Shown here in pieces: positions 4,070 to 23,851 of a DNA stretch of 64,000 bases (positions are counted from its first letter, which is position 1; the number at the start of each line of letters is the position of its first letter). The stretch is from contig JAOMWM010000002.1 of the NCBI GenBank assembly GCA_028357285.1, forward strand, positions 62,001-126,000, given 5' to 3'. The notes beneath the pieces were generated by a model. It did not search any database. It was not told where the DNA came from and was given only the letters and a program-made list of their open reading frames with translations. The translations under genes and the position numbers were made by a program. The DNA is from Schleiferiaceae bacterium (GTDB lineage Bacteria > Bacteroidota > Bacteroidia > Flavobacteriales > Schleiferiaceae).

Positions 4070-5326
4070 ATGGCGTTGTTATTAAGCATCCACTCAGATA
4101 TTATGATCTTCAGAATATTCTTCACCCTCGGGTTCGTGCTCGCCATCGACCTTTACGCGTACCAAGCGTTTAAAACCGTCTTCCGTAGCAGCGCCACACC
4201 CTATGTCTATTGGAGTATTACGGTCGCCTATATCATATTCTCTATCGTAATGGCGACTGTAATGACTAGTGGGAAAGTCGACTATAAATACCTAAGTCTT
4301 CTTATGGGGGTCTCTGTATTGCTCGCTGTACCTAAACTCATCGCAATCGGCCCGCTGCTTATCGAAGATGTGGTCCGATTAGGCCAATTTATTTTCCGTG
4401 GTGTAACCACTCAGCCCACGGTATTGCCAGAGCGCAGAGCCTTTATTTCGAAATTGGCGCTTGGACTTGCTGCCATCCCTTTCTTAGGCATTATTGACGG
4501 GATTTGGAAAGGACGTTACCGCTATCGAGTCATTTCGCACACCCTCGAATACGAGGACCTACCAGATGCATTCGATGGCTTTACCATCGCCCAGATTTCA
4601 GACATCCACAGCGGTTCATTCGACAATACAGAAAAGGTGCAATACGGCGTCGACATGGTCACAGAACTAGGAGCCGATTGCATTGTGTTCACCGGCGACA
4701 TGGTCAACAACACGGCCAGTGAAGCGGAACCATGGATCCCTGTTTTCCAACGCTTAAAGGCTAAATCCGGTATATTTTCAATCTTAGGCAATCACGATTA
4801 TGGTGATTATTGGCGGTTTCCAACGCCAGAAGCGAAAGTCGCCAACATGGATAGATTGAAAGAAATCCATGCAGAAATGGGCATGGATCTTCTGCTCAAC
4901 GACAGCCGATATTTCGAGAGAAACGGCGCAAAATTATACCTTGCGGGAGTTGAAAACTGGGGTTTACCTCCGTTTCCGCAATACGGAGATATAAACACTG
5001 CATTAGAACAAATCCCTGAAGATGCGTTCACTGTGCTTTTGAGCCACGACCCGTCTCATTTTGACGCTGAAGTGAAGCAACACCCCAACAAAATTCACTT
5101 AACGTTAAGCGGTCATACGCACGGAATGCAGTTTGGGATTGAAATTCCTGGATGGATCAAATGGTCGCCTGTAAAATTCAAATATCCAAAGTGGGCGGGA
5201 CTATATCCTGAACAAGATGGGAGAATACTGCATGTAAACCGCGGATTTGGGTTTTTAGCCTTTCCAGGGCGTGTAGGCATGTGGCCTGAAATCACGCACA
5301 TTACCTTGAAAAAGAAGGTCGTTTAG
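4070..5326 (+). CDS. Membrane-anchored metallophosphoesterase
   Basis: This 418-residue calcineurin-type phosphoesterase has the dinuclear metal motifs in order: ISDIHSGSF (D178, H180), TGDMVNN (D210), LGNHDYGDY (N241, H242), LLSHDPSHF (H326) and LSGHTHGMQFG (H349, H351). Three hydrophobic segments fill residues 12-105. A twin-arginine-like ERRAFISKLALGLAAIPFLG (121-140) then leads a fourth segment, so the catalytic domain is probably outside the cytoplasm. The substrate is unknown; relatives include YaeI-like UDP-diacylglucosamine hydrolases. An alternative ATG at 4103 (MIFRIFFTLG) is equally credible, as neither has a clear ribosome binding site. The 3' end overlaps the convergent crtY-blh gene by a few bases. 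Confidence 0.88.
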   Translation: MALLLSIHSDIMIFRIFFTLGFVLAIDLYAYQAFKTVFRSSATPYVYWSITVAYIIFSIVMATVMTSGKVDYKYLSLLMGVSVLLAVPKLIAIGPLLIEDVVRLGQFIFRGVTTQPTVLPERRAFISKLALGLAAIPFLGIIDGIWKGRYRYRVISHTLEYEDLPDAFDGFTIAQISDIHSGSFDNTEKVQYGVDMVTELGADCIVFTGDMVNNTASEAEPWIPVFQRLKAKSGIFSILGNHDYGDYWRFPTPEAKVANMDRLKEIHAEMGMDLLLNDSRYFERNGAKLYLAGVENWGLPPFPQYGDINTALEQIPEDAFTVLLSHDPSHFDAEVKQHPNKIHLTLSGHTHGMQFGIEIPGWIKWSPVKFKYPKWAGLYPEQDGRILHVNRGFGFLAFPGRVGMWPEITHITLKKKVV

Positions 5327-7302
5327 AATCGGTCCTTGTAAAGCTTCGACATGAAGTAAATGTGTGGTAAGCTAATGGCGCTGAGGAACACTAAAAAATA
5401 GCTCGACCAAGCCAATAATGAGCTCTTGTCAAATCTAAACACCAATAGAAAGAGCGCGACAGCACCTATGGTAAACGGCAAGGCTTTCATCCACATTTCG
5501 GCATTCGTCCATTTGTGTGACAATTTTAAGTGGCTCCAACCCGACAGACTGTGTTGTAAAACAAAGTAAATTCCAAATGCCGTAGCCAGCGGTAAGTAAG
5601 CCGTCAGACTTAGCGTCACCATGGCAACCACCCAAGGAATGGAGCGGAACCAGAAGCCCATAAAAAGTCCGAGTGACAGCGCCATTCTGTAAACCATGTT
5701 CATGAATTCCGTGGACCATGTTACTTTACCAATACCCATGACTTCAAGCACTGTGTTCACTTCAATCGAATGGGGTATAAGTATCAGCGCCAATAGTAAA
5801 GTCCCCCATAAAAACGACAGACCAATACTAGGAAAGCCCCATTCTCGTAGGTCTGTTTCTCCAAAATGCCATGCACTGTAAATCAAAAAGGCAAGTAGTC
5901 CTGTTACAGGACTCGCCGCCCAGAATAAAACAACCATCAGCATAATAAAGCAGTAACGCAAAATAAATTTCGGTAACCGTTCCTGATTCGCATGGCTATA
6001 ACCGTCCAGTGCTCCATGTGGAATACCGTATAAGAATAACAAGAAAACGAGTACCGCTTGTAACCCGTAAGAAACGGAGCTTGGCAATAAAGCTTCAGCA
6101 GCTAAGGCAAGTACGGCGAATAAAATGGGAGCCCAGCGCGAAGGCTTTGCCACTACAATCGCCACGAATGATGCCGCTAACGCCCATAAAAATTTCATGA
6201 TGGGTAGACGGAAAAACATGCTCAATTCCCATTTAAAGGAAGACTTCTCATCTAAGAACTGAAAGACTTTATTGGCTTTCTGAGTCGCGAATAACGTTTC
6301 AAAGATCTCCTTGCCCCAATGCGGTTTGTGTTTTAAGATGTGTAGCAACAAGTGATCATAGAAATTGAAGCGGTCCATATTACTCTTTGGCAGCCGCAAC
6401 CATGACGAATCTTTGCGCTCTTGGGCGATACTTTCCGCGAGTTCTTTTGCATGCTCAAACATGCTTTTAAAGGCATAACCGGTTGTAGCCTTTACTCTTC
6501 CGGCACGCGCACCTGTTGAAACGATGCGTGCATCTTGATCTTTAACCTCAGCATATTGTGTCATCGGGATTACACCGCGCTCCTCGTGCAGTATCTCAAA
6601 GGACAACCCTCTTGAGAGCAGGTAGTTTCTAAGGTGATTGCTGGCCAATTCATGAGGTAATTGTTCGCTACCGAATCGTGTCATTTCAACCAGCGCTTCC
6701 TTAGCGTCCGTTGGGAGAACATACATGAATTGAGTAAAGTCATTCTGTGGAATACCAAAATCCATCAGCGTCATTTGATTCGGTGTCCAGTAGTCTTCCT
6801 GCAGTTTCACCCGCCAACCCACGAAACTTTGTAATACTAATGGCCCCATCGGCTCCTTAATGATGGGTGGTCTGCTGTCAAATAATTGCTGAACCTCCCA
6901 AGAATGACTCCCGCTAGAAACAACAATACTTTCCTGCTCTCCCTTTAGTCCATCTACAGCACCCCGTATCCATTTAACGTTATCATAGGATTGTGCTATA
7001 CTTTTAACCTTATTATATAGCGCAATACTTTCAACCATATAATAATGTTGATCCTCAAGTGACTCTAAACCATCAACCGTATCAATTGTATCCCACTGAT
7101 GGAACATAACATCTTTAAGCTGTGTGCGTATTTCATGTTTCGCATCTGCCCAAAAACAGTACGTTTTATCGTTTTTTAATTTTGCGTCGGGCTCCAAAAC
7201 AAGAACGTTTAGCGAACGGAGTAAATTCTTTCGCTCCAATTCAAGCAAAAGCAATCCGTTGGCTGCACCCATTCCTAGAAAACCTATATCGTAACGCTCC
7301 AT
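5323..7302 (-). CDS. Bifunctional lycopene cyclase / beta-carotene 15,15'-dioxygenase (CrtY-Blh fusion)
   Basis: One uninterrupted 659-residue ORF contains two full enzymes. Residues 1-375 are a CrtY-type flavoprotein lycopene cyclase: dinucleotide-binding GFLGMGAANGLLL (7-19), LQSFVGWRV (157-165), MDFGIPQ (180-186), ERGVIPM (241-247) and TGARAGRVKATTGYAF (263-278). Residues 376-659 are a polytopic Brp/Blh-family dioxygenase carrying the four histidine motifs expected to bind iron: GIPHGALD (426-433), AWHFGETD (477-484), LQHSLSGWSH (582-591) and SLPHIYFM (644-651). The N half closes lycopene to beta-carotene and the C half cleaves beta-carotene into two retinals. The gene is divergent from proteorhodopsin, its obvious client. 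The two halves together are as long as the separate enzymes (about 380 + 280). The third glycine of the usual GxGxxG is Asn here. Confidence 0.92.
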   Translation of the reverse strand: MERYDIGFLGMGAANGLLLLELERKNLLRSLNVLVLEPDAKLKNDKTYCFWADAKHEIRTQLKDVMFHQWDTIDTVDGLESLEDQHYYMVESIALYNKVKSIAQSYDNVKWIRGAVDGLKGEQESIVVSSGSHSWEVQQLFDSRPPIIKEPMGPLVLQSFVGWRVKLQEDYWTPNQMTLMDFGIPQNDFTQFMYVLPTDAKEALVEMTRFGSEQLPHELASNHLRNYLLSRGLSFEILHEERGVIPMTQYAEVKDQDARIVSTGARAGRVKATTGYAFKSMFEHAKELAESIAQERKDSSWLRLPKSNMDRFNFYDHLLLHILKHKPHWGKEIFETLFATQKANKVFQFLDEKSSFKWELSMFFRLPIMKFLWALAASFVAIVVAKPSRWAPILFAVLALAAEALLPSSVSYGLQAVLVFLLFLYGIPHGALDGYSHANQERLPKFILRYCFIMLMVVLFWAASPVTGLLAFLIYSAWHFGETDLREWGFPSIGLSFLWGTLLLALILIPHSIEVNTVLEVMGIGKVTWSTEFMNMVYRMALSLGLFMGFWFRSIPWVVAMVTLSLTAYLPLATAFGIYFVLQHSLSGWSHLKLSHKWTNAEMWMKALPFTIGAVALFLLVFRFDKSSLLAWSSYFLVFLSAISLPHIYFMSKLYKDRF

Positions 7303-7510: not shown

Positions 7511-8254
7511 ATGTCATTATTTTTAGACGGATCTATGGGATTCGATCCGAACGATTACGTATCGTTCACATTCTTCGCCGGTTACATGGCGATGTTAGCC
7601 GCTTCGGTATTCTTCTTCTTCGAAAGAAGTAGAGTTGCAGACGAGTGGAAAACTTCAATGCTCGTTAGTGGGCTTATTACTGGTATTGCAGCAGTGCACT
7701 ACTACTACATGCGTGATTTCTACGCTGCCGGTAATGGAAGTCCAGTTGTTCTACGTTATGTAGACTGGACCTTAACTGTTCCACTTATGTGTGTTGAGTT
7801 CTATTTGATCACCAAGAAAGCTGGTGGTACGAAGTCAATCTTGTACAAACTGATCTTAGCTTCAGTTGCGATGTTAGTTACCGGTTACATCGGTGAGGCA
7901 TTTTACGCAAACGATGCTGTTTCATGGGTTTGGGGTGCTATTTCTGGTGCTGCTTACTTCTACATCGTATGGATGGTATGGAAAGGAGACGTTGCGAAAT
8001 TGGCAAACAACGCTGGTGGTGCAGTAGCAAAAGCAAACGGAGCTTTGGCTAAATTTGTTATCATCGGTTGGGGTATCTACCCTATCGGTTACATCTTAGG
8101 TACAGCTGGTGGATTCTTCGGAATGGACCTCGGTATCGCGGCAAACGAAGAAGTACTAAACTTGTGCTACAACCTTGCTGATGCAATCAACAAAATTGGA
8201 TTCGGTCTTGTAATCTATTCTCTAGCAATAAGCTCAGAGACAGAAGCGGCTTAA
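7511..8254 (+). CDS. Proteorhodopsin, green-type light-driven proton pump with antenna-type glycine
   Basis: This is a 247-residue seven-helix microbial rhodopsin. Helix C reads RYVDWTLTVPLMCVEFYLI, giving D85 (proton acceptor), T89 and E96 (proton donor): the DTE motif of outward proton pumps, not NDQ sodium or NTQ chloride pumps. M93 sits at the spectral tuning position (105 in the reference proteorhodopsin), where Met or Leu means green absorption. H63 pairs with the acceptor as in proteorhodopsins. K228 in NLADAINKIGFG is the retinal Schiff-base lysine. In helix E, WVWGAISGAAYFYI aligns with bacteriorhodopsin VWWAIST so that G142 replaces W138, the position that opens a carotenoid-binding window in xanthorhodopsin. 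It is a single-gene unit with its own terminator, divergent from the retinal synthesis gene. Confidence 0.97.
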   Translation: MSLFLDGSMGFDPNDYVSFTFFAGYMAMLAASVFFFFERSRVADEWKTSMLVSGLITGIAAVHYYYMRDFYAAGNGSPVVLRYVDWTLTVPLMCVEFYLITKKAGGTKSILYKLILASVAMLVTGYIGEAFYANDAVSWVWGAISGAAYFYIVWMVWKGDVAKLANNAGGAVAKANGALAKFVIIGWGIYPIGYILGTAGGFFGMDLGIAANEEVLNLCYNLADAINKIGFGLVIYSLAISSETEAA

Positions 8255-8277
8255 TCATACGTTTCAGAGTGTTAGTG

Positions 8278-8311
8278 AGCCCCGCGACGAAAGTCGTGGG
8301 GCTTTTTTTTT
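8278..8311 (+). terminator. Strong terminator after proteorhodopsin
   Basis: AGCCCCGCGAC-GAAA-GTCGTGGGGCT is an 11-bp stem (one G-T pair) with a GNRA-type tetraloop, followed by nine T residues. It should isolate rhodopsin transcription from the M61 peptidase gene. Confidence 0.9.
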
Positions 8312-10368: not shown

Positions 10369-13080
10369 TTAATGCGCTATAATTAGTTGCTCTGTAAATC
10401 TATTCGAAGTTGAAGCCGCAGTTACATGATAAATTCCATTAGGCAACGATTGAATATTTAAACTAATCTTTGAGCCCTCATACATGCGCTTTTCGCGAGT
10501 CCAAAGCTTACCTGTAGTATCGTAAATGTATATGTCAAGAGGCGTCCCCGAAAGCCAAGCACCGTCGATGAACAGTTCGTCGTTCGCTGGATTAGGATAC
10601 AACATGATTGGTCTCGACAGATCTTGCTCTGAAAGTCCAATTCCCTGAACAAATTCGAACCAATTTAAATTGAACTCGGAACCCACATCAAGTCGAAGCT
10701 TATAATCGCCTTGAGATAGAACACCGCCAGGCTGATTAGTTGTTTGCCATGTTTGCCAACCTCCAGTTGCGCCAAGTGAAATCGAGGGGAAACTCGTTAC
10801 ATAATTACCCAACGTATCCATAAAAATGAACTGCATATTGACTCCTGACTGTGAAGAATGCCTGTAATCCACACTGTAAGTAGCACTATTTAAAACTTTG
10901 ACATCGTAAATGAGGTAATCACCAGCTCCCAAATAACCTATGTTTTGACCACCGCCTATATCCGTGGTATTCTCTAACGAGATACCGTCCATACTGGAAT
11001 ATGCTTCCGCTTCAATTTTACCCGGTATGACATGCACCGTAGGCAAGGTGTTTTCAACCAACTCTTGACTAAATGACTGAACGTTGGTTCCATCTTTTGC
11101 TTTTAGCGTCGTTCCAGCGTAGGATATTTTTATTTCATCTAGGAAAGTAAGCGCCTGCCCAACCCCAATAAGTACATTACGTGAATTCGATAAACTTTTA
11201 GTTATGGAAGTCACTGTCGCTGGCACTCCATTCACTGTTACATAATAAGATGCAGCGAGACCAAGATTGGCAGTATCTAGAGGTTTATTCGTTTGCACCT
11301 CAATCGTGGTATTATCGTAGGTCACCCCATGTACATAATCAGCCGTGATGGTGTTCGTTGCACCTGTGGCTACGAACTCAAAACTAGTGACATTAAACCC
11401 GCCTTGATTCGCTACAAAACGCATCTTCTTATCGGTGGAAGAAAGAACAACATTAGGAATAGTCTTAGTAGACATAACCGTCCAACTGCCTGTATTCGTA
11501 GCGTAATAGTTCGGTGTTAATCGCACACCATCCGCTTCGAAATAAAAATTTCCTCCCGTAGAACCGCTACAACCTTGTCTAACTTTAATAGTGTATACAC
11601 TGTCTTGGGGAATATTGACGCTGTAGCTCATCCAATCCTCAGTATCGACAAACCCTACCATATAACCATTACTGTTAACGGCATCAGTGAATTTCTCAAT
11701 ATCTACACCGTCATTTCTATACGTCCATCCAGAATTCCATGAGGGCGGTGGGTTAAGTTGGTACGACTCTGTATCGAAGTATGCGTCTCCTAATGGGCCC
11801 ATATCATATTCTGAGGCATGCACTACACCTGGTAAATCATGCGTTTTCCACGGGAGAGATGTGGGATCTTGAACTTGACGGAACATCGCGTCAATAACTC
11901 CTCTATTATACGTACAATTCTGAGCTTTCAAATCCGTCGTCAACTGCATAAGCGTTGCTGTGGCAGCAGCTACTGATGGAGCCGAACCATTACCGCTCCA
12001 GTAATCCAATAGATCTTGATAGCCAGCAGACTTCGTTATACTAAGGGGAGCGTTGATTGTTTCTATCTTTTTCAAAGGCCACCACGCCCATCCTACACCT
12101 TCTGCCTCAAATAAACTGATGAGCCCGGTATACCAAGCATTTGAATTTTCGCCGGATTCCCCAAACCAGATGGGTATGTTGTAGGTGTCTCTTAAATCTA
12201 ATCCGTACTGAATATCAGCAACACTATTCACAGGAGACCAGTATTTATGTGGAGAATACACCATATTATTATCCCACGGAGGGGTTAAACCTGTAAATGT
12301 ATTAGCGAACCAATTCCCCTCTATAAAGATCACATGATTCGTATCCACCGAACGGATACTATCGGTTATGTCCTCATACATTGATCTCAGTAGAGTTCCT
12401 CCAGGTAAGTTCCAGTTGGGCTCATTGATCAAATCATATCCAGCAATGGTTGTATCAGTAGCGTATCGCTCCGCAAGTTTTCGCCACAGTGAAGACGTCT
12501 TATTTCTGTTATGAACACTTTCCCATAGTGATGGCTTTGAAGGATCGTAATCACTAATCCCTTCGTCATAACCTTGTCCACCCGGTGCAGCATGTAAATC
12601 GAGTATGACATACATATCGTTTACTCGACACCATTTAACAACGGAATCAAGCAGGTAGAAACCTTTAGTCAGCCATGTGTTTTGTCCTAAGACAGGTTCG
12701 TCCTCAATCGGCAAAGTGAAAAGATTGTAGTGCATTGGAACACGGACCGTATTAAAACCCCAAGCGGCCATTGAATCTACATCGGCTTTGTTAAAGTGAT
12801 TTTCTAACCATGCATCATAGAAAGCATCCGTTGCTGTAACTCCGATAAGATCTTCGATCGTGTCTCTAATTTTATGCTGCGGACTTGCAAACGAAGCCGT
12901 CTGAAGCATGTAACCCTCTTGAACCATCCAACCACCGACACCCATCGATCGAATAAGCAGGGTGTCTCCATTACCATCTAAGATTACCTTACCTGCGGTC
13001 TGAACATATTGTCCTTTAAGTGGCGTTAATACACTTATGAAGCAAAACACCAAAAGCCCTGCCAATGAATTCTTTTTCAT
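10369..13080 (-). CDS. GH5 glycoside hydrolase with two CBM6-like domains, T9SS-exported
   Basis: The ORF track starts at a TTG (13107); the ATG at 13080 gives a proper signal peptide (MKKNSLAGLLVFCFISVLTPLKG). In ORF-track numbering, residues 40-400 are a GH5 TIM barrel: FNTVRVPMHYN, the acid/base E229 in DLINEPNW and the nucleophile E317 in IWFGESGE. They are followed by a CBM6-like domain (430-580), an Ig-like domain (585-690), a second CBM6 (695-822; IEAEAYSSMDGI, NWFEF) and a T9SS type A sorting domain (832-912; YPNPANDELFI). It probably hydrolyses a beta-glucan at the cell surface; the context of GH16 and SusCD suggests laminarin or mixed-linkage glucan. It follows the PUL regulator by 84 bases, with a direct-repeat motif in that gap. 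Confidence 0.88.
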   Translation of the reverse strand: MKKNSLAGLLVFCFISVLTPLKGQYVQTAGKVILDGNGDTLLIRSMGVGGWMVQEGYMLQTASFASPQHKIRDTIEDLIGVTATDAFYDAWLENHFNKADVDSMAAWGFNTVRVPMHYNLFTLPIEDEPVLGQNTWLTKGFYLLDSVVKWCRVNDMYVILDLHAAPGGQGYDEGISDYDPSKPSLWESVHNRNKTSSLWRKLAERYATDTTIAGYDLINEPNWNLPGGTLLRSMYEDITDSIRSVDTNHVIFIEGNWFANTFTGLTPPWDNNMVYSPHKYWSPVNSVADIQYGLDLRDTYNIPIWFGESGENSNAWYTGLISLFEAEGVGWAWWPLKKIETINAPLSITKSAGYQDLLDYWSGNGSAPSVAAATATLMQLTTDLKAQNCTYNRGVIDAMFRQVQDPTSLPWKTHDLPGVVHASEYDMGPLGDAYFDTESYQLNPPPSWNSGWTYRNDGVDIEKFTDAVNSNGYMVGFVDTEDWMSYSVNIPQDSVYTIKVRQGCSGSTGGNFYFEADGVRLTPNYYATNTGSWTVMSTKTIPNVVLSSTDKKMRFVANQGGFNVTSFEFVATGATNTITADYVHGVTYDNTTIEVQTNKPLDTANLGLAASYYVTVNGVPATVTSITKSLSNSRNVLIGVGQALTFLDEIKISYAGTTLKAKDGTNVQSFSQELVENTLPTVHVIPGKIEAEAYSSMDGISLENTTDIGGGQNIGYLGAGDYLIYDVKVLNSATYSVDYRHSSQSGVNMQFIFMDTLGNYVTSFPSISLGATGGWQTWQTTNQPGGVLSQGDYKLRLDVGSEFNLNWFEFVQGIGLSEQDLSRPIMLYPNPANDELFIDGAWLSGTPLDIYIYDTTGKLWTREKRMYEGSKISLNIQSLPNGIYHVTAASTSNRFTEQLIIAH

Positions 13081-13144
13081 CTGATTTAATGATTTAAGAG
13101 GTATCAAGTTCTATTAAAATCTCAATAATCTACGATGAAACCGG

Positions 13145-13161
13145 TGGACAATAACTGGACA
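13145..13161. promoter_or_regulatory. Direct-repeat motif upstream of GH5 (shared with susC)
   Basis: TGGACA-ATAAC-TGGACA repeats with exactly 11-bp periodicity. It is 65-81 bases upstream of the GH5 ATG. On the transcribed strand it reads TGTCCAGTTATTGTCCA, closely matching the element upstream of susC at 23852-23868. Confidence 0.6.
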
Positions 13162-13164
13162 CGG

Positions 13165-15981
13165 TTAAAGGCCCTGAATATATTCGTCCAGAGCATCTTC
13201 TTTATTAAGCGCTATTTTCTTTTTTAATCGGTATTTCGCTTTTTCAATCGCAGCCGGGCTCACATTTAGAACCGTAGCGATCTCTTTATTACTCATTTTC
13301 TGACGTATTAAATAACAAAGGCGAACCTCCCCTTTGGTGAGCTTAGGGAACTGCTTTATTAAACGTCTTGAAAATTCTTCGTGTAACTCTCGGTAATTCC
13401 GTTCAAAATGATCCCAATAGTTTTCGCTCTGTAATTCCCTATTAATCTCACGAGTCATCGATTTTAGAAATGTCAATACTTCATCTGAGCGGTTTTTTTG
13501 TTTGCTTTCACTTTCCAATCGCTCTTTAAAGGAATGCAGAAGCTCGAGTCTGCTTGATGTTTTTAATAATTGGAAACTTAATTCGGTTTTTTGCTGGTTT
13601 GACTTTACCTCAAGCTCCGATGCTTTTGCTTTAAGTAACTCTCTTTCTGTTTCTACCAATTTAAGGCGGGTTGACCTGTACTTTCTCTCTTGATAAAAGG
13701 AAACAGCCGTGCCTATTAGAAGTATAATAATGACAAAAATTAATATTCTGAACCAGGATCGCTGGATAAGAAACGACTTTATTCTGAAGGAAATTAACAC
13801 TGTTTTTTCAACCGCATTAGCTCCAAGAGACCGCACCTCCAATAGATACTTCCCTGGCGGCAACTCTTGCAAGTCAATAGTGCGGGTTCCATAAGGCAAC
13901 TCCACATAGTAATCTCCGAGCTCCTTTATTCTATATGCATTGCTTATACCATTCCGGAGCGTATTGCTGGCCAATTCAAAATTAAAACGTACAGATTTAG
14001 TTCCTGCCGCGAATACTACCGTCCGCGCTGAAGAAATGCCGTCCTTAATAATGGGAATAGGCTCTGGAAGATTATCTGCAAATACTTCCGTAATAAGCAT
14101 TGGAGGAATCGCTGCTGCAGAGGAGTCTTCAGTTGATATTTCAACTACCCCTTGAGTACCTCCTAACAACAGGCGTTCCCCATTCCATAACAACGCTTTT
14201 CTATTCGAGAGACCTACTTGAAGTTCATCAAGCTCTTTGAACACTTCATAAGACCATTCCAATTGGTCATTTAATTTAATCTCTAAAAGACCTACACTTG
14301 TCGCTGCATATACCCTTCCTTTTCTTTCGCTAATGGAATAGCAATTCACAAACGTCTCCTTCCCAATAATTGTATCAACGACTCGACCCTCATCGATCAC
14401 AATTATCCCACTGCCTTCAGTGCCTACCAGTTTATAATCTAAATAGGTCTCTATATCTAAGACTGAATTTTTTATAGGTATACTTTGAATGGAGCCTTGT
14501 CTTGAAAGGGTATAAATGCCTTGAAATTCTGTACCTACCCAAAGTAAGTCACCATCGAACTCTAAATCCATTATGTTTCGACCTACACGCCATGGAGTAT
14601 CAAATGGCGATGTGATTTCCGCCCCATCCCAGAATTGTAAACCGTAAAGCGTACCAATCCATAAACTATCGCCCCAGGTTTTCTCCAACGACCAAATATT
14701 TGAATTTTCGAGTCCACGCGACGATTGAGAGTAGGCTAAGAATTGTTCTTTAATGGTACCCGATGTATCCATCACAAATAATCCCTGACCCAGACTGCCT
14801 ATCCATAATTCGTCTTGATAAAACTCAAGACTTGTAACCACGTCGGGTAAATAAGGGTTATCAAATGTAGTGGGCTGCCAGCCTGCCGGCGATTCTCGGT
14901 AGCGAACGAGACCATCTCCATCAAAACCAACCCACAAATCGTTATCGCTCACCATGCTAATGGCACTTTGAATACTCGATGCGACGAATTTTTTAGGCTT
15001 CGGAAGTAACGATACCGCACTGTTGTTTACCGGAAATTGCGCGACACCGCCATTATAGGTGCCTAACCAGAGGGCATCATACACTTCATATATTCCATAA
15101 AATTGATCCGTAATAATTCCTGAGGTTGGATCTTGTTTCGTAAAATGTTGAATAGCACTACCGTTCCATTGGTATACGCCATATCCATCCGTGGAAATCC
15201 AAACATTGCCCTCGTAAAAAATGGCATCACGCTGGGTTCCCTTTGTCGGAATCGCTAATTCGTAAAACACATCGCCTGACAGTTCAAAAACGCCAGTTCC
15301 TTCAACAGAAAAAATGACTCGCCCGCCAGATACATCCACCGATTTTCGAAAAGAACTCACGCTTTTATTTGCCTCAAGCGCATAAACAGACTTTTGCGAC
15401 TTTAAGTAATACAGCAGGTGATCACCGCTCGTCGCAATCCACAAAGTATCACCTTGATCTTCAAAATCGAATATAAATTTTAAGTCCTCGGCATATTCGT
15501 CAGAAACAAAACGCTTCCATTTTTCACTGCCCGGTCTTAGTTGGAATATTCCGGAACCAGAACTTCCTGCCCATATAGTTCCTTCCGAATCTTGATGAAG
15601 GGAGATTATTGATATCTCTCTTGGAAGTTGCGGAATCTTACTGTCTGGAATTGGCCGAAGACTTTCAAGATCAACTCCCATTATGCCACCTAGCTGCAGA
15701 CCAATAAGCAGTACTGAGTCTTGAGTGACCAATAAGCTTTGGACATTATTTGATCTACGAAAATCTGTAGAATCTAGAAAAGGAAAAGAGCGTGCTCGAC
15801 CTTCATTGTATTTATATAAACCGTCACGCGTTCCTATCCAAACAAAACCCCAGTCGTCCTGCACTATGGAATACACTGTGGGATTGTTGAGTCCCTCAGC
15901 AGCGCCTATATGACGTATGGACTGGCCGCTTGCAAAAAGTGAACAGGCAACAAAAAGAACGATATATAAGAAACTTCGCAT
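13165..15981 (-). CDS. Membrane-tethered beta-propeller sensor / LuxR-type regulator of the PUL
   Basis: This 938-residue protein has a signal sequence (residues 1-19) and then about 620 residues of Reg_prop-type propeller repeats (SIVQDDWGFVWIGTRDGLYK, DNDLWVGFDGDGL, GDSLWIGTLYGLQFW). A triple-tyrosine-type beta domain follows (about 640-735). Next come one transmembrane helix (743-762), a coiled coil (764-850) and a C-terminal LuxR/GerE-like helix-turn-helix (about 880-925; LTKGEVRLCYLIRQKMSNKEIATVLNVSPAAIEK). There is no HisKA, HATPase or receiver domain, so it is a one-component relative of hybrid SusR-type systems. It probably senses a glucan fragment in the periplasm and controls the flanking operons. 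The start is ATG. A terminator separates it from the upstream susC operon, so it probably has its own promoter in 15982-15998. Confidence 0.88.
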   Translation of the reverse strand: MRSFLYIVLFVACSLFASGQSIRHIGAAEGLNNPTVYSIVQDDWGFVWIGTRDGLYKYNEGRARSFPFLDSTDFRRSNNVQSLLVTQDSVLLIGLQLGGIMGVDLESLRPIPDSKIPQLPREISIISLHQDSEGTIWAGSSGSGIFQLRPGSEKWKRFVSDEYAEDLKFIFDFEDQGDTLWIATSGDHLLYYLKSQKSVYALEANKSVSSFRKSVDVSGGRVIFSVEGTGVFELSGDVFYELAIPTKGTQRDAIFYEGNVWISTDGYGVYQWNGSAIQHFTKQDPTSGIITDQFYGIYEVYDALWLGTYNGGVAQFPVNNSAVSLLPKPKKFVASSIQSAISMVSDNDLWVGFDGDGLVRYRESPAGWQPTTFDNPYLPDVVTSLEFYQDELWIGSLGQGLFVMDTSGTIKEQFLAYSQSSRGLENSNIWSLEKTWGDSLWIGTLYGLQFWDGAEITSPFDTPWRVGRNIMDLEFDGDLLWVGTEFQGIYTLSRQGSIQSIPIKNSVLDIETYLDYKLVGTEGSGIIVIDEGRVVDTIIGKETFVNCYSISERKGRVYAATSVGLLEIKLNDQLEWSYEVFKELDELQVGLSNRKALLWNGERLLLGGTQGVVEISTEDSSAAAIPPMLITEVFADNLPEPIPIIKDGISSARTVVFAAGTKSVRFNFELASNTLRNGISNAYRIKELGDYYVELPYGTRTIDLQELPPGKYLLEVRSLGANAVEKTVLISFRIKSFLIQRSWFRILIFVIIILLIGTAVSFYQERKYRSTRLKLVETERELLKAKASELEVKSNQQKTELSFQLLKTSSRLELLHSFKERLESESKQKNRSDEVLTFLKSMTREINRELQSENYWDHFERNYRELHEEFSRRLIKQFPKLTKGEVRLCYLIRQKMSNKEIATVLNVSPAAIEKAKYRLKKKIALNKEDALDEYIQGL

Positions 15982-15998
15982 ACAGCAATTTACAAATG

Positions 15999-16026
15999 AA
16001 AAAGGGACCCGTTACCGAGTCCCTTT
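15999..16026 (-). terminator. Terminator at the end of the susC operon
   Basis: AAAGGGAC-CCGTTACCGA-GTCCCTTT is a perfect 8-bp stem. Read on the minus strand it is followed by a short T run (CCCTTTTTC). It lies 29 bases past the last gene of the susC-led operon. Confidence 0.75.
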
Positions 16027-16054
16027 ATCACTTACTTACTAACTAAATTAAATT

Positions 16055-17068
16055 TTAGTTGAGTGAGATACGAATTACACTATCCGTTTCCTCGTTTTGT
16101 AAACGCACGATGTACATACCGCGTGGCAATGTTGCAACATCAAGGCGTGTATTCGCCTCAAAGCTTTCCTCCATTACTTTGGCACCTGTTACGTTATATA
16201 CAGCTACAGAAGTAGTAGTTCCTGTGGTATTTTCAATGAATAACACATCAGAAGCTGGGTTCGGCTTTACGGTAAAGCTAGCAGCAACCTCTTCAACTCC
16301 AATGTTAGAGTAACCACCACACTCTTCCCAAGCATGTATCATCAAAGTAGTATCAGACGTTCCAACTGTAAGAACGCGATCAGTGAAACCTGCAGAATTA
16401 GTGTTGATACAAGTAGTGTCGCTCATGGATGCAGGAACGAAGTTTTCTTGAATCGCCCAATCATCAGCAGTAAACTTGTAGCGGTAGTCTCCTGGCGTTA
16501 ATGACATAACAACAGTGTACACACCATCTCCATCTGTATCCGTCATCGGATAAGCAGTACCATTCCACGCAACCGGGAATGTACCAGAAAGATATGCATT
16601 TGTAAATGCTGGACTGTTAGAGCGATCAGATTGGAAAGTCACGTCAACAGGTGTTAATGGCGTTGGACAAACTGTATCTGTTGCACAGGTACCAAAACAA
16701 AACATTAACGTGGTATCCTGAGTAAACGATGGTAAAATACGATCATCATAATTACTCGGGTCAGAACACGGTAATCCGTTTAACGATTCCTTTGTACCCC
16801 AATCTGCATCATTTGCTGGACTGTTAAGGAAGATGAAATTACCTCCACCAGTTCCATCTAAAGTATCAGTTCCTTCATAAACACCGTTACCATCTGGATC
16901 GGTTAATTGAACTGCGTTTGCACCACCAATGACACCACCGCCTAAGAATAGACCGTTAGCACCTACTGTGATGTTAGCTGTATTGACTTTAAAAGTCACT
17001 ACATGTGTTGTTTGTGCGAAACCCAACATAGGTAGGGCAAGCATTAATAAAGCGTAGATTTTTTTCAT
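16055..17068 (-). CDS. T9SS-sorted protein with two tandem glycan-binding-like domains
   Basis: The second in-frame ATG (17068; the ORF track uses 17077) directly starts the signal peptide MKKIYALLMLALPMLGFAQ. Two similar beta domains follow (about 25-136 and 143-253 in ORF-track numbering), each with the pattern D-x-DGxGVY then a GxxxxF/RYKF strand, reminiscent of CBM20/CBM48 or SusE/F-type starch-binding folds. The C-terminal 75 residues are a T9SS sorting domain (VKPNPASDVLFIEN, LPRGMYIVRL). It has no catalytic motif. As the last gene of the susC operon it is best read as a surface glucan-binding protein; that is inference from fold pattern and position. Confidence 0.78.
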   Translation of the reverse strand: MKKIYALLMLALPMLGFAQTTHVVTFKVNTANITVGANGLFLGGGVIGGANAVQLTDPDGNGVYEGTDTLDGTGGGNFIFLNSPANDADWGTKESLNGLPCSDPSNYDDRILPSFTQDTTLMFCFGTCATDTVCPTPLTPVDVTFQSDRSNSPAFTNAYLSGTFPVAWNGTAYPMTDTDGDGVYTVVMSLTPGDYRYKFTADDWAIQENFVPASMSDTTCINTNSAGFTDRVLTVGTSDTTLMIHAWEECGGYSNIGVEEVAASFTVKPNPASDVLFIENTTGTTTSVAVYNVTGAKVMEESFEANTRLDVATLPRGMYIVRLQNEETDSVIRISLN

Positions 17069-17093
17069 GTTAAGCATTATTTATAGTTAGTAA

Positions 17094-18254
17094 TTATTGA
17101 AATACTCTTATGTAATCCACCAGCATGTACTGAGGGAATGTTGTTGAAGGGCCAACTGGACCTGGCCAGTTTCCTTCTACGGCAATGTTTAGTATGAAGA
17201 AGAACTTCTCTTTAAACGCCCCTAAGTTGGAGATGTTCAAAGTGTGAAATAAAATATCATCACGAAACCACTTGATGGAACCACTATCCCAAACTATGGA
17301 GAATACATGAAATTCGTCATTATACTTTCCAGAAGTAAGGCTGTTATTTCCGCCATATTCTGCATGACTACCATTATTCGACCAATGTGCTGTACCATAA
17401 ACAGTGCGATCATTATAACCGTCACCTCCGATCAACTCCATAATATCAATCTCACCACAGCTGGGCCAGCCATCCGTAGAAAAGTTATCGCCCAACATCC
17501 AGATCGCAGGCCATATACCCGGACCGTATGGCACTTTTGCGCGAATATCTATTCTCCCGTACTTAAATGACTGCTTTCCTTGAGTGGTAATTCGAGCCGA
17601 AGTATAGGGCGCGCCTAAATGCGTTTCCTGTTTAGCCGTTATGCGTAAATATCCCTGATCTAGCTCTGCATTGCGATTACCACCACGGTAGTATTGACTT
17701 TCATTATTTCCCCAACCTGAAGCACCGGTCTCGTAATTCCAATCCGATAAATTTAAATCTGTACCTGAAAAATCTTCTTCCCAGACTAATGTTTTTCCGG
17801 AATAGGAGTTCGGAGTAGTGTAACCTATATCTTCAATAGGTGGTGCACCGTCGTCGTTACGTAAAGTGATTGACGCATAAGGCTCCGGTATCGTTACATT
17901 CACAGCATTACTGAAAGAAATCCAAAATGTCTCGGTCTCCTCAGACTCCTCATCTCCATAAATAGTGAGTGGAATGGACGCCATTGTTGCGCCTTTCGGA
18001 ATTTCTAAGGTGCCTTGTGCCAATTCAAAATCATCACCAGATTCTGCATTAACGTCGCTTGTAGTATAATCGAGCGTTATAGTCTTTGCCGCAGGTGCTG
18101 AAAGAAAAACGTCAAAGTCAATCGTTTTAGTCGCGTTACCCTCGTCTATTTCAATGCTGTACGCAGTGAGTTGAGGAACCGAAGGGGCTTCGCAACCAAC
18201 GGTTGCAAGGCCTACTACGATTGTTATTGCTGTATTTCTTAGGGTCTGAATCAT
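17094..18254 (-). CDS. GH16 endo-beta-glucanase (laminarinase-like) lipoprotein with Calx-beta domain
   Basis: This is a 386-residue lipoprotein (lipobox ending in TVGC, C21). Residues 30-135 form a Calx-beta domain (DEGNATKTIDFDVFLS). Residues 153-386 are a GH16 beta-sandwich with the catalytic signature GEIDIMELIG: E268 is the nucleophile, D270 the assistant and E273 the acid/base. The insertion (M272) marks the laminarinase/lichenase type. KYGRIDIRAKVPYGPGIWPAIW and the C-terminal YMLVDYIRVFQ are further family blocks. It would cut beta-1,3 or beta-1,3/1,4 glucan at the outer membrane next to SusCD. It lies 6 bases behind the PKD lipoprotein gene in one operon. Confidence 0.93.
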   Translation of the reverse strand: MIQTLRNTAITIVVGLATVGCEAPSVPQLTAYSIEIDEGNATKTIDFDVFLSAPAAKTITLDYTTSDVNAESGDDFELAQGTLEIPKGATMASIPLTIYGDEESEETETFWISFSNAVNVTIPEPYASITLRNDDGAPPIEDIGYTTPNSYSGKTLVWEEDFSGTDLNLSDWNYETGASGWGNNESQYYRGGNRNAELDQGYLRITAKQETHLGAPYTSARITTQGKQSFKYGRIDIRAKVPYGPGIWPAIWMLGDNFSTDGWPSCGEIDIMELIGGDGYNDRTVYGTAHWSNNGSHAEYGGNNSLTSGKYNDEFHVFSIVWDSGSIKWFRDDILFHTLNISNLGAFKEKFFFILNIAVEGNWPGPVGPSTTFPQYMLVDYIRVFQ

Positions 18255-18260
18255 CTATTA

Positions 18261-19130
18261 TTATTCAGAATAAAGCGTGAAACGCCAAAGGCCACCGCCA
18301 AAGTCACATTCAATTTCCATGTAACGATCACCAGCAACATCAGTCATCGATAAAATATCATACGTCACAGACGTTACTGGAGAAGATACCTCACCGCCGT
18401 TTGCTGCCTTAGGTATCCCGATAAAGGCACCTAAACCGTTTACTTTTAATTGATCTGGAAGCGGTCCATTACCCGGTATAATTTCAAACGAATGCGTTCC
18501 ACTCGCCCATGCATCATGAGGAGAAGTCAAAGCCGTCTCAGGAGTACATCCCTCAGTAGCAACACCGAAATATGTTTCAGCATAAACATCACCGTTAGCA
18601 TCGTATTCCATCGTGCCGTCCTCACTGAAAATCCACTCGTCATTGAATAAACATGGACGATCCGTAGGGCCTGAAGCAGGGATTGCCCACCACGTAGTGT
18701 TGCCATCAGGACCAACCCATAAAGAGCCCGCCTGTGGAGCTAATTTCCATGTACGAGATGTACATTCTGTTAACCACTCCATGGCACCTATACAAGGCAT
18801 CGGGCCATCTATCAAAATTTCAATCTGACCTGTTGCAGATGCACTACCCCCTTGATTGAAGACGGTGTGTGAAACATCATAAGTACCCATAGCACCGATG
18901 AATACTTCAATACTTTCACCGGTGTAGGTACCAACACCGTCGATTTCCCATTGATATAGGAATGGATCACCGGTAGAGGTTGAAACCAATTGTACAGTAT
19001 TACTGTCAATGAAGGTTACGGAGTAATCTGCTTGAGGGAGTGCCCCCAATTCTGTATGTCCCGCCTCGCTTGGTTCACAAGCGATAAAACCGAGAGCTAC
19101 AAGACTAAATAAAGCTAATTTCTTTAACAT
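18261..19130 (-). CDS. PKD-domain surface glycan-binding lipoprotein
   Basis: This 289-residue lipoprotein (LGFIAC lipobox) has a PKD domain at about residues 34-110 (LYQWEIDGVGTYTGE, GTYDVSHTVFNQGG). A second module follows with the block CTSRTWKLAPQAGSLWVGPD, seen in Bacteroidota proteins next to SusD and in GH16 enzymes. Many exposed Trp residues fit sugar binding, and no catalytic motif is seen. The position directly after SusD is that of a SusE/SGBP-type accessory protein. Its predicted role is to hold glucan at the cell surface for SusCD. Confidence 0.83.
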   Translation of the reverse strand: MLKKLALFSLVALGFIACEPSEAGHTELGALPQADYSVTFIDSNTVQLVSTSTGDPFLYQWEIDGVGTYTGESIEVFIGAMGTYDVSHTVFNQGGSASATGQIEILIDGPMPCIGAMEWLTECTSRTWKLAPQAGSLWVGPDGNTTWWAIPASGPTDRPCLFNDEWIFSEDGTMEYDANGDVYAETYFGVATEGCTPETALTSPHDAWASGTHSFEIIPGNGPLPDQLKVNGLGAFIGIPKAANGGEVSSPVTSVTYDILSMTDVAGDRYMEIECDFGGGLWRFTLYSE

Positions 19131-19142
19131 CGTTATCGATTT

Positions 19143-20657
19143 TTAGTATCCTGGATTCTGAGTTAATACATCTGGTGCAGCATCAATTTCCTGCTGCGGG
19201 ATTGGAAGGTAAGTATGCGTAGACGCAACAAAACCTTGATCACCCAATACTTCCGTGGCTTTACCGGTTCTGAGAAGATCAAAGAAACGGTGTCCTTCCG
19301 TCGCTAATTCCATGCGACGTTCTGTATAAATATCTTCAAGTAGTTGGTTGCCTGTGCTCGTTAAAGCGGCAAGACCAACGCGGCTTCTTACCTGGTTTAA
19401 ATACGTTCGAGCCGTACCTTCTGAACCACCGCTTCTAACGATTCCCTCAGCAGCCATTAATAAAACGTCTGCATAGCGAATTTCGCGAATGTTGTTCCCC
19501 CAGTTAAGAGCAGGATCACCGTCTGGCGCAACATTTGATGCGATCGGTGCATATTTGCGCATCCAGAACCCAGTGTTTTGATACCCAGGCGTGTATTCTG
19601 CACCTGGTAATGCATCTGCATCGATAATGGTGTAGCCATAACGTGGATCACCGTCCATCGCAGCCTCTAATTCAGTTGACACTGGGCAGAAGCCCCATCC
19701 TGTTGCATACGTAGGGCCGTTGTAGTCACGCATTCCAATGAACTGGACACCAACGTTTCCTTCTCCACCGCCCCAGCCGAACGAGCCCCAGTCAGAAGCT
19801 GAGTTTTCACTGTAGGTTATTTCAAAAACACTCTCCGAAGACCACTCCCCTTCTGCAGACCAAATGTCAGAGAAACTTGAAAGAAGTGAATACTCTCCTG
19901 ATTGAATTACTGACTCACATAGAGAAGCCACTTGTGCCATGCTAGATGCGTCGTCTTCGAAAAGTAAAACGCGTGCTAGAAGTGCTTGTGCAGCACCTTT
20001 AGTAACACGGCCTAATTGGTTGGAACCAACAGAGCTCGGTAAATCTGTAATTGCTGCTTCAAGATCAGAAACAATAAATGGATAAATTTGATCAGGACCT
20101 ACCTGCTCCACAGTGTAATATTCTGATGCTCCTAGCGTATGATCAATTAAAGGGATATTCCCGAACAGACGAACTAGATCAAAGTAAAACTTCGCACGGA
20201 GGAATTTCGCCTCTGCCTTTGTGCGCGTTCTAAATGCTTCACTCGCATCTTCGATTTCGTCAATTTTTTCAAGGAATAAATTAGCGCGGTAAATTCCTTT
20301 ATACCCTTTTCTCCAAAAACCACGCTGTGGCCCTAGGTTCGGGGTTAGTGTAAAGTTATTGTAGGCAACCCATGAAGGTTGATCGGAAGCATCACTACCT
20401 CCTGCATATGTATCGTCAGAAGCAACATTCTGTAAGAATCTAAACATGGTGAAACCATATTGATCATTCCACTGTAGTACATCGTAAATACTTACCAATG
20501 CTTCGAAAGCTTGCTCCTCAGTCTGGTAGTAGTTCACCTCTAATACACGGCCAACGGGTCTAGTATTCAAAAAGTCTTTTGAACACGAGCCCAGAATCAT
20601 AGTAAGCGCTAGAAGCAAGCTTACCCAGATACCTTTTGTTTGGTTTAACTTATTCAT
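19143..20657 (-). CDS. susD: SusD/RagB-family nutrient-binding lipoprotein
   Basis: This is a 504-residue SusD homologue of standard length with lipobox LGSC near residue 25. KDFLNTRPVGRVLEVNYYQTEEQAFEA at the mature N terminus, AEAKFLRAKFYFDLVRLFGNIPL in the TPR region and the C-terminal TERRMELATEGHRFFDLLRTG are diagnostic. It forms the lid of the SusC transporter and binds the oligosaccharide. It starts 7 bases after susC. The glucan specificity is inferred from the GH16 gene in the same operon. Confidence 0.95.
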   Translation of the reverse strand: MNKLNQTKGIWVSLLLALTMILGSCSKDFLNTRPVGRVLEVNYYQTEEQAFEALVSIYDVLQWNDQYGFTMFRFLQNVASDDTYAGGSDASDQPSWVAYNNFTLTPNLGPQRGFWRKGYKGIYRANLFLEKIDEIEDASEAFRTRTKAEAKFLRAKFYFDLVRLFGNIPLIDHTLGASEYYTVEQVGPDQIYPFIVSDLEAAITDLPSSVGSNQLGRVTKGAAQALLARVLLFEDDASSMAQVASLCESVIQSGEYSLLSSFSDIWSAEGEWSSESVFEITYSENSASDWGSFGWGGGEGNVGVQFIGMRDYNGPTYATGWGFCPVSTELEAAMDGDPRYGYTIIDADALPGAEYTPGYQNTGFWMRKYAPIASNVAPDGDPALNWGNNIREIRYADVLLMAAEGIVRSGGSEGTARTYLNQVRSRVGLAALTSTGNQLLEDIYTERRMELATEGHRFFDLLRTGKATEVLGDQGFVASTHTYLPIPQQEIDAAPDVLTQNPGY

Positions 20658-20664
20658 GTTTTAT

Positions 20665-23600
20665 TTATTTAAATGTGATGTTCAATCCTATTGTATTCAC
20701 TCGTGCTTGCGGGTAGATACCTCTGTCTATACCGAAACCAGCACCGATTTCCGGATCAAATCCACTGTATTTAGTGAATGTAAGAAGGTTCGTACCGCTG
20801 TAGTATATACGCATTTTACGAAGACCTATACGCTCGGCAGTTGGACCCGTTATATTGTATCCTATCTGTAACGACTTCAATCTAAAGAAGCTACCGTCTT
20901 CAACATAGAAATCTGAACTACGTGCAAAGTTTCTATTTACGTCGTTGAACGTAAGTCTTGGATATTCATTCGTAGAACCTTCTCCTGTCCAGCGATCGAT
21001 TGCCTTAGCAGGCATGTTCGAGGTTGGTAAGTCGTAACGGCGTGTAGCATTGTAAATCTGATTTCCAAATACTCCTTGACCGAAAATATTTACGTCCCAA
21101 TTTTTGTAGCGCATATCGATCGTTAAACCAGCAGTCCAATCCGGTGTAGGATTACCAATCATAGTTCTATCATCCGCGTCAATTACACCGTCACCGTTGA
21201 CATCAACAAAACGGAAATCACCAGCTTGTGCCATTGGCTGCAGAGTATCGCCATCGCCACTCGTGTAACTGAATACATCATCCATATTTTGGAAGATTCC
21301 GTCCGTTTGATATCCGTAGAGGTAACCGATAGGTAAACCTTCTGTAATACGAGTGATTTCGATACCCTGTGGTCCCCATCCGGCACCTGTAAGGTAACCG
21401 GCATCATTACCGATCAAGATTACTTCGTTTTTGATAAAACTTGCATTTCCGCTAACACCGAAAGAGAAATCTTTACTGTAGCTGCGGTCGTATCCGAATT
21501 CAATATCAACACCCTGGTTCAACATTGAACCAACGTTCGCTGTAGAAGGGTCATTACCAATGTAATCAGGTAATGGTGGACGCGTTTTCATACCATTGGT
21601 ACGACGACTAAATACATCTACTCCTAATACAAGGTAATCATAGGCACGAATTTCTGTACCAACGTTTAATTGAGCAACACTCTCCCAACGTAAATCAGGA
21701 TTCGCTACTTGTGCTGGTGTCGTACCATTAACAAGTACTTCGTTTGCACCAAATGTGTACGAACGACCACCGATGATGGTAGAAGCATACTCTAAAGAAC
21801 CTGCTGCGTCACTACCATTCAAACCGTAACCGGCCTTAAACTTCAACGTGTTTACATTATCGTAAATCCACCAATTTTCTTTGTGAACATTCCATCCAGC
21901 AGATAACGAAGGGAAATATCCCCAACGGTTGTTCTGTCCAAAACGAGAAGAAGCATCGGCACGAAGAATTGCAGTGGCCACATATTTACCATCGTAGTCA
22001 TAGTTTACACGACCGAAGTATGATTCGATTGCATAACGCTCCCACTTACCACCGTATACTTGCTCTGAAATTTCGTTACGGGCATAGTCGATGGTAGCGT
22101 CTTGAAAGTCTTGTGTAGGTACATCACGCTTATTTCCGCCGATATAACGACCGTTTACTTCTTGAGCACTGTGACCCACCAAATAGTTGAGGTTGTGCTT
22201 ACCTATGCTTTGAGTGTAGGTCAAGGTATTGTCCCATATCCATGTAAAACCTCTATTGAAACTAGAGTAGACATTATTAGTGTCTAGAAGGTTTGTCGCA
22301 TTCAGATAGTGTGATGGAGTCATTCCATCATTTCCCCAAAATGCAAGGTCAATACCCATGCTAGAACGCGCTTTCAATCCAGGTAGGATTTCAAATTCAG
22401 CGTAGGTATTATTGACGATTTTATCTGCCCAACCTACATTATTAATCATCGAATAAGCAGCCACAGGATTTACTACCTCAGATGTTACACGATTTGAAAT
22501 ACCGAAAATTCCATTCTCATCGCGAACTAAATTTCCGCGAAGAACACCTCCTGAAGAATAGGGAGTTCCTGACAATACTGTAGGATCTGTTTCGTAAAGT
22601 GGTGTAATTGGGTCAATGTTTAATGCACGACCTAAAGGCGAGCCCCATTCTGTATTTTCTGCAACACCATTGCTTTGATTGTGTGTATAAGCTACATTCC
22701 AGCCTACTGTCAAACGGTCATTGACTTTCGTTACAGTATTTAGGCGAGCCGCCAATCTTTCATAGTACGACTTGCCTTCCGCGACAATACCTTCTTGATT
22801 GAAGGAGCTAATAGAGGCATAGTACGAACCACGGTCTGTTCCGCCAGCGATACTAATATCGCTGTTCTGAATCACTGCGTTTCTGTTAAATACAGCGTCT
22901 TGCCAATCTGTACCTGTACCGTACATGCTTGGATTGCTGTAAGGTAAAGTTTGGCCTGCAGCACCGGCCATTTCATTTTGCAATGTAGCATACTCAGTAG
23001 CATTCAATACTGGTGCTTTCTTCCATGGATTCTGCAGACCCGTGTATGAAGTAACCTTCACTTCCATACCTCGAGCTTTCGATCCGTTTTTCGTTGTAAT
23101 GATAATAACACCATTCGCGCCACGAGCACCATAGATAGCGGCAGAAGCTGCATCCTTAAGTACTTCTATAGTTTCAATGTCGTTAGGGTTTAAATAATCT
23201 ATACCGCCGCCAATAACAACACCGTCAATCACGAAGAGTGGATCTGAGCCGTTTATTGATGAAGTACCACGTACACGAATCACCGCGCCAGCACCTGGCT
23301 GACCAGAACTCTGAACGACACTAACTCCTGATGTTCTACCTTGAAGCGCAGTTTCAACGCGAGGCAAAACAATATCCTCTAAGTCTTCCGACTTAACACT
23401 AGATATCGCTCCGGTAACATTTGACTTCTTTTGAGTTCCAAACCCAACAACAACTACTTCATCTAAGGTAGAAGCGGCTTTGTCGTAGACTAGTTTTATG
23501 TTAATACTTTTTGAAGCACCCAGAGACACCTCTGTGGTAACATATCCCACGAAGGAAACTGTTGCCGTTGAGCCCTCTTTGGCGTCAAGCGTCCATCTAC

Positions 23601-23772
23601 CTTCCATGTCTGTCATTGCAGATTTCTGACCGGCCTTCACTACGGCACCCGGCAGCGGTGAGTTGTCAGTAGCATCGACTACCGTTCCCCTGTACTGAGC
23701 ACTTACCTGCGCCGAAAATCCTAAGAAAAGAAGGACTAGAAAGGACGCGATGTAATGTTGTCGTTTGTTCAT
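20665..23772 (-). CDS. susC: SusC/RagA-family TonB-dependent outer membrane transporter
   Basis: The ORF begins at 23814, but the ATG at 23772 begins the signal peptide MNKRQHYIASFLVLLFLGFSAQ, and the earlier stretch holds a palindrome that looks regulatory. A carboxypeptidase-regulatory-like domain follows (YRGTVVDATDNSPLPGAVV). Next come the TonB-box-like segment LDEVVVVGFGTQKK, the plug with IEVLKDAASAAIYGARGANGVIIITTK and a large beta-barrel ending in LNITFK. It imports glucan oligosaccharides with SusD. It is the first gene of the PUL operon. The direct-repeat motif 80-96 bases upstream of the ATG is shared with the GH5 gene. Confidence 0.95.
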   Translation of the reverse strand: MNKRQHYIASFLVLLFLGFSAQVSAQYRGTVVDATDNSPLPGAVVKAGQKSAMTDMEGRWTLDAKEGSTATVSFVGYVTTEVSLGASKSINIKLVYDKAASTLDEVVVVGFGTQKKSNVTGAISSVKSEDLEDIVLPRVETALQGRTSGVSVVQSSGQPGAGAVIRVRGTSSINGSDPLFVIDGVVIGGGIDYLNPNDIETIEVLKDAASAAIYGARGANGVIIITTKNGSKARGMEVKVTSYTGLQNPWKKAPVLNATEYATLQNEMAGAAGQTLPYSNPSMYGTGTDWQDAVFNRNAVIQNSDISIAGGTDRGSYYASISSFNQEGIVAEGKSYYERLAARLNTVTKVNDRLTVGWNVAYTHNQSNGVAENTEWGSPLGRALNIDPITPLYETDPTVLSGTPYSSGGVLRGNLVRDENGIFGISNRVTSEVVNPVAAYSMINNVGWADKIVNNTYAEFEILPGLKARSSMGIDLAFWGNDGMTPSHYLNATNLLDTNNVYSSFNRGFTWIWDNTLTYTQSIGKHNLNYLVGHSAQEVNGRYIGGNKRDVPTQDFQDATIDYARNEISEQVYGGKWERYAIESYFGRVNYDYDGKYVATAILRADASSRFGQNNRWGYFPSLSAGWNVHKENWWIYDNVNTLKFKAGYGLNGSDAAGSLEYASTIIGGRSYTFGANEVLVNGTTPAQVANPDLRWESVAQLNVGTEIRAYDYLVLGVDVFSRRTNGMKTRPPLPDYIGNDPSTANVGSMLNQGVDIEFGYDRSYSKDFSFGVSGNASFIKNEVILIGNDAGYLTGAGWGPQGIEITRITEGLPIGYLYGYQTDGIFQNMDDVFSYTSGDGDTLQPMAQAGDFRFVDVNGDGVIDADDRTMIGNPTPDWTAGLTIDMRYKNWDVNIFGQGVFGNQIYNATRRYDLPTSNMPAKAIDRWTGEGSTNEYPRLTFNDVNRNFARSSDFYVEDGSFFRLKSLQIGYNITGPTAERIGLRKMRIYYSGTNLLTFTKYSGFDPEIGAGFGIDRGIYPQARVNTIGLNITFK

Positions 23773-23793
23773 TGTGTCTAGTTTTATTGATAA

Positions 23794-23810
23794 AGTGTAT
23801 TTTGTACACT
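23794..23810. promoter_or_regulatory. Palindrome in the susC leader
   Basis: AGTGTA-TTTTG-TACACT is a perfect 6-bp inverted repeat with a 5-bp spacer, 22-38 bases upstream of the chosen susC ATG. It could be a promoter-proximal operator or a 5' leader hairpin. Confidence 0.4.
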
Positions 23811-23851
23811 GCAATGTGCTAATGAATTAGTCAAGGAACAACTTCTTAGCC

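Follow-up and report, generated by a model that had tools for sequence, protein, structure and literature searches.

The window analyzed here is a stretch of 64,000 nucleotides from a Schleiferiaceae metagenome-assembled genome (MAG; 74% complete, 67 contigs). It carries a proteorhodopsin gene, a divergently oriented crtY-blh fusion gene and the following features of the predicted carotenoid site, with residues of the pump matched to those of xanthorhodopsin (XR), Kin4B8 and bacteriorhodopsin (BR):

5323..7302, minus strand: crtY-blh fusion gene, 659 aa, divergent from the pump gene (lycopene beta-cyclase at residues 5-370, Blh/BCD at residues 421-655)
7511..8254, plus strand: proteorhodopsin gene, open reading frame of 247 aa (ATG at 7511, stop at 8252-8254)
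7934..7936, plus strand: codon of Gly142, the predicted fenestration glycine, equivalent to XR Gly156, Kin4B8 Gly153 and BR Trp138
8090..8092, plus strand: codon of Tyr194, equivalent to XR Tyr207 and Kin4B8 Tyr204 (alignment; PMC12308411, Table 2)
8102..8107, plus strand: codons of Thr198-Ala199, equivalent to Kin4B8 Ser208/Tyr209 near the 3-hydroxy ring, with the polar Thr kept and Ala at the second position
8277..8311, plus strand: intrinsic-terminator-like hairpin 3' of the pump gene (12-pair stem, T run)

The product of the proteorhodopsin gene matches Pfam Bac_rhodopsin (3.2e-42), and alignment places in it the motif D85-T89-M93-E96 and the Schiff-base (retinal) lysine K228. D85, T89 and E96 form the DTE proton-pump signature and M93 occupies the spectral-tuning position (L93 in BR); the proteorhodopsin family features of seven helices, Schiff-base Lys, Asp acceptor, Thr and Glu donor are all present. 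On this sequence the protein is predicted to be an outward proton pump of the DTE type. An AF2 model of the pump (mean pLDDT 88.6) matches proteorhodopsin structures with TM scores of about 0.8-0.9. Identity is 60% to NM-R1 (over aligned positions), 45% to green proteorhodopsin and 28-29% to XR, GR and Kin4B8, and at only 28-29% the pump falls outside the xanthorhodopsin family (the XR/GR/Kin4B8 clade).

Bases 7931-7942 translate as W141-G142-A143-I144. In a MAFFT multiple alignment G142 shares a column with W138 of BR, G156 of XR and the Gly of Kin4B8, GR and NM-R1 (9jov), and green proteorhodopsin has Phe there; every sequence other than that of BR was taken from search output or identified with a PDB entry. 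HMMER, aligning the pump to PDB sequences, places G142 in the same way, which bears out the original prediction that helix E aligns without gaps and that its glycine stands where BR has W138, XR Gly156 and green proteorhodopsin Phe. This glycine is present in all 126 homologous stretches from relatives and GTDB genomes (some loci overlap or represent the same gene twice), as well as in further, more divergent flavobacterial pumps, which points to a clade feature of Bacteroidota proteorhodopsins. Across an alignment of 34 sequences, Gly142, Ser145 and Tyr194 are invariant (34/34) and Thr198 occurs in 33 of the 34, whereas position 143 can be any of six residues; since G142 is fixed while its neighbor varies, the glycine is not a chance occurrence. 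Judging by these alignments, Gly142 is not special to the Schleiferiaceae genome and is a trait of the Bacteroidota proteorhodopsin clade.

Kin4B8 no longer binds zeaxanthin when its Gly153 is exchanged for a bulkier residue (PMC12308411). No bulky side chain that would block the fenestration was found in the pump, where helix E has Ala143 and Gly146, both less bulky than their XR counterparts Phe157 and Thr160; the size of the opening was judged from the sequence and the fold match. The counterpart of Tyr194, Tyr204 of Kin4B8, is conserved across all known carotenoid-binding rhodopsins (PMC12308411). At four positions tabulated for these proteins the pump has Tyr194, Ile195, Thr198 and Ala199, KR1 has Y, M, T and D, EinA29G6 has Y, I, T and E, and XR has Y, M, M and A (PMC12308411, Table 2). 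Ser208 of Kin4B8 is required for zeaxanthin binding, and Tyr209 aids energy transfer, which falls from about 40% to 18% in Y209F (PMC12308411). At these two positions the pump has a polar residue (T198) followed by one that is not (A199), and NM-R1 has T and P. Ala199 is the same residue as in XR, whereas Kin4B8 has Tyr, KR1 Asp and EinA29G6 Glu; because NM-R1 has Pro here, Ala199 need not stop binding. The ring-B partners of Kin4B8, Asn188 and Tyr191, are not kept in the pump, as read from the sequences.

The best PDB fold match to the AF2 model is 9jou, titled 'zeaxanthin-bound light-driven proton pumping rhodopsin, NM-R1' (Nonlabens marinus), and by sequence, too, 9jou and 9jov rank first, so that the structural modeling suggested with the original prediction leads to a zeaxanthin-bound proteorhodopsin as the nearest fold. 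NM-R1 resembles the pump in its DTE motif, in Met at the tuning site and in Gly, Tyr and Thr at the carotenoid site, and differs from it in sequence (60% identity), in having Pro for Ala199 and in coming from a different Flavobacteriales family; its carotenoid complex has been solved, whereas that of the Schleiferiaceae pump is predicted. KR1 (Dokdonia eikasta), also a flavobacterial proteorhodopsin with a fenestration site, is reported to bind lutein, zeaxanthin and astaxanthin, with astaxanthin participating in energy transfer (PMC12308411), and has Thr-Asp at the ring end compared to Thr-Ala in the pump. Kin4B8 (8i2z) and Salinibacter XR (3ddl) have Gly153/Gly156 and Tyr204/Tyr207 in common with the pump and hold their carotenoid against helices E and F, but belong to a different rhodopsin family (28-29% identity); XR has a 4-keto carotenoid and Met-Ala at the ring end. 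Flavobacterial proteorhodopsins that bind carotenoids are already known, one of them from a zeaxanthin-bound structure, and the pump extends this known kind.

The fusion protein encoded beside the pump matches Pfam Lycopene_cycl (7.9e-45) and BCD (1e-22), and TIGR03753 over its cutoff; its Blh part belongs to the beta-carotene 15,15'-dioxygenase family, and from these domains CrtY-Blh is presumed to supply retinal to the adjacent pump. Wherever a congener locus is long enough to tell, the two genes are fused; other Bacteroidota have the fusion too, mostly beside a proteorhodopsin, most such loci having been selected for holding one. Full-length fusions are few in a 396-genome sample of the phylum, where separate crtY and blh genes are the common state. 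A literature search of incomplete coverage yielded no paper that describes CrtY-Blh fused in a bacterium; a protist CrtI-CrtB-CrtYcd-Blh fusion has been reported (PMC10016063). At another locus (G046:C37, L160; 9770-13840), two tandem proteorhodopsins have a CrtY-Blh fusion between them.

The original prediction, which proposed a hydroxylated antenna carotenoid, also suggested a search for crtZ, and the result favors the prediction at the level of the genus: a protein search with a real CrtZ among Schleiferiaceae/Cryomorphaceae MAGs detected crtZ in 22 of 24 congeners, but the window's own assembly holds a terminal fragment and no intact copy. The fragment, on contig C42, covers the last 54 residues (the last third) and is 85% identical. 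A search with Pfam PF04116 had returned only a lipid-desaturase (CarF/TMEM189-type) gene in the own genome and few CrtZ in the genus, which would have indicated absence of crtZ; because true CrtZ, scanned directly, gives no Pfam or NCBIfam match, this negative is an artefact, and the search with the real protein replaces it. Five FA_desaturase matches were considered as CrtR/CrtW-type enzymes, and no P450 hydroxylase was found. The own genome has intact crtB and crtI, two polyprenyl synthases, and intact cruF and crtD (CrtD scores 613 bits where the cutoff is 500) adjoining a CarF-type gene. Synteny in the congeners defines a conserved crtZ-crtYcd-terC-crtD-cruF cluster. In five other genomes (G009, G016, G023, G013 and G022) the same locus runs on through terC to a CrtYcd-type lycopene cyclase and CrtZ; own-genome contig C34 stops inside terC, just before crtYcd and crtZ. 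At positions 3933-4187 of contig C42 (G000:C42, L206), the CrtZ tail and crtYcd start run in inverted orientation into a lipoprotein gene, from which they are separated by several genes in relatives.

The myxol cluster of Nonlabens spongiae is similar, with CrtZ, CrtD, CruF, a lycopene cyclase and CrtB/CrtI in a monocyclic 3-hydroxy route: the cyclase and CruF yield a monocyclic 1'-hydroxy product, which CrtD desaturates, and CrtA-OH and CrtZ complete myxol (PMC11855829). The Schleiferiaceae genes differ in having a CrtYcd-type cyclase in the xanthophyll cluster, crtI and crtB elsewhere, and no crtA-OH seen in the cluster. Since CruF, CrtD and CrtZ occur together with no CrtA-OH seen in the cluster, the pathway is expected to end in a product of the saproxanthin type, with zeaxanthin as a possible product. 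Carotenoids of the saproxanthin type are 3-hydroxy derivatives of 1'-hydroxytorulene, and like zeaxanthin they have a 3-hydroxy beta-ring, the part that would lie at the fenestration. The crtZ cluster of the congeners, together with the own genome's cruF, crtD and crtZ fragment, makes a 3-hydroxy carotenoid the candidate for the native antenna; it is probably monocyclic, of the saproxanthin/myxol type, and a monocyclic 3-hydroxy carotenoid appears at least as likely as zeaxanthin.

With CrtY-Blh and the CrtYcd of the xanthophyll cluster, the genus has two lycopene cyclases. We tentatively suggest, as an idea that is more doubtful than the antenna itself, that CrtY-Blh converts lycopene to retinal with its beta-carotene shielded from CrtZ, and that the separate CrtYcd-CrtZ-CruF-CrtD branch produces a saproxanthin-type antenna. 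If so, two insulated branches would feed the two chromophores of one light-harvesting complex, and the pump would natively use an antenna carotenoid unreported for a proteorhodopsin in the literature found.

The basis of our best explanation is the sequence, its alignment, the pump motif, the conserved site residues, the gene clusters and the nearest solved structure, from which pumping, carotenoid binding, energy transfer and the identity of the native carotenoid are predicted. The protein is probably a proton-pumping proteorhodopsin whose Gly142 fenestration seats a 3-hydroxy carotenoid antenna, with retinal from the CrtY-Blh fusion. Gly142 in helix E, replacing a bulky residue, would open a lateral passage to the retinal ring; the beta-ring of a 3-hydroxylated carotenoid would sit in it, and the carotenoid would pass blue-green excitation to the retinal. 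The partner xanthophyll (saproxanthin-like, myxol-like or zeaxanthin) would come from the CrtYcd/CrtZ/CruF/CrtD cluster elsewhere in the genome, and the retinal would be delivered by the adjacent CrtY-Blh fusion. The carotenoid-antenna interpretation of the original prediction is supported in substance.

Bacteroidota proteorhodopsins could instead have inherited the same glycine for packing or tuning, with the pump using retinal alone and the carotenoids of the cell serving only membrane stability and photoprotection. This is unlikely, though not negligibly so: the glycine is invariant clade-wide whatever the lifestyle, and CrtZ is common in pumpless relatives too (25 of 39 genomes). A Flavobacteriales genome that is 98% complete (G070; L222, G070:C4) has the pump, the Gly and blh, with no crtZ, CrtI or CrtD detected and blh as its only carotenoid gene detected; Gly by itself is thus no proof of antenna use or of xanthophyll synthesis by the organism, and this one may obtain carotenoid or retinal from its surroundings. 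Two members of the clade, however, bind zeaxanthin, namely KR1 (PMC12308411) and NM-R1 (by the title of 9jou), and genomes with the pump have crtZ more often, at 37 of 41 against the 25 of 39 without it (Fisher p 0.007, shared ancestry ignored). The fenestration might also hold a carotenoid whose main role is to stabilize the structure; since Ala199 offers no polar contact to fix the angle of the ring, little energy would be transferred. The Ala lies at the position of Kin4B8 Tyr209, where Y209F halves transfer (PMC12308411), and Kin4B8 binds salinixanthin without energy transfer (PMC13093654, PMC12308411). Yet KR1, EinA29G6 and NM-R1 also do without this Tyr, and astaxanthin in KR1 still joins in energy transfer (PMC12308411), and a mainly structural role is improbable.

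Least probable is that crtZ is truly broken, with the C42 junction a real inversion breakpoint and the organism making no 3-hydroxy carotenoid. The crtZ tail is indeed inverted onto a gene found several genes off in relatives, but the junction has about 14 shared bases and lies less than 250 bases from the contig end of an incomplete, fragmented MAG, the crtZ frame and crtYcd start are otherwise intact, and nearly all congeners have the gene. The junction is most likely an assembly chimera and only possibly a real inversion.

With this pump, the predicted carotenoid-antenna site reaches an uncultured lineage of marine Schleiferiaceae. Gly seems to be the rule at this site in Bacteroidota, and xanthophylls may therefore collect blue light for many proteorhodopsins from sea and fresh water that are now regarded as using retinal only. 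With its paired gene sets, the fused cyclase-Blh for retinal and CrtYcd/CrtZ for xanthophyll, the system lends itself to a direct test of which carotenoid is the native antenna.

Elsewhere in the window, positions 10369-23814 (minus strand), adjoining the pump and an M61 peptidase, hold genes for a GH5 with CBM6, a Reg_prop regulator, a GH16, SusD and TonB/SusC-like proteins, and are probably a beta-glucan (laminarin-like) utilization locus. Positions 51976-57816 (minus strand) encode a secreted protein of 1946 aa that contains PKD domains and a sorting tail for type IX secretion.
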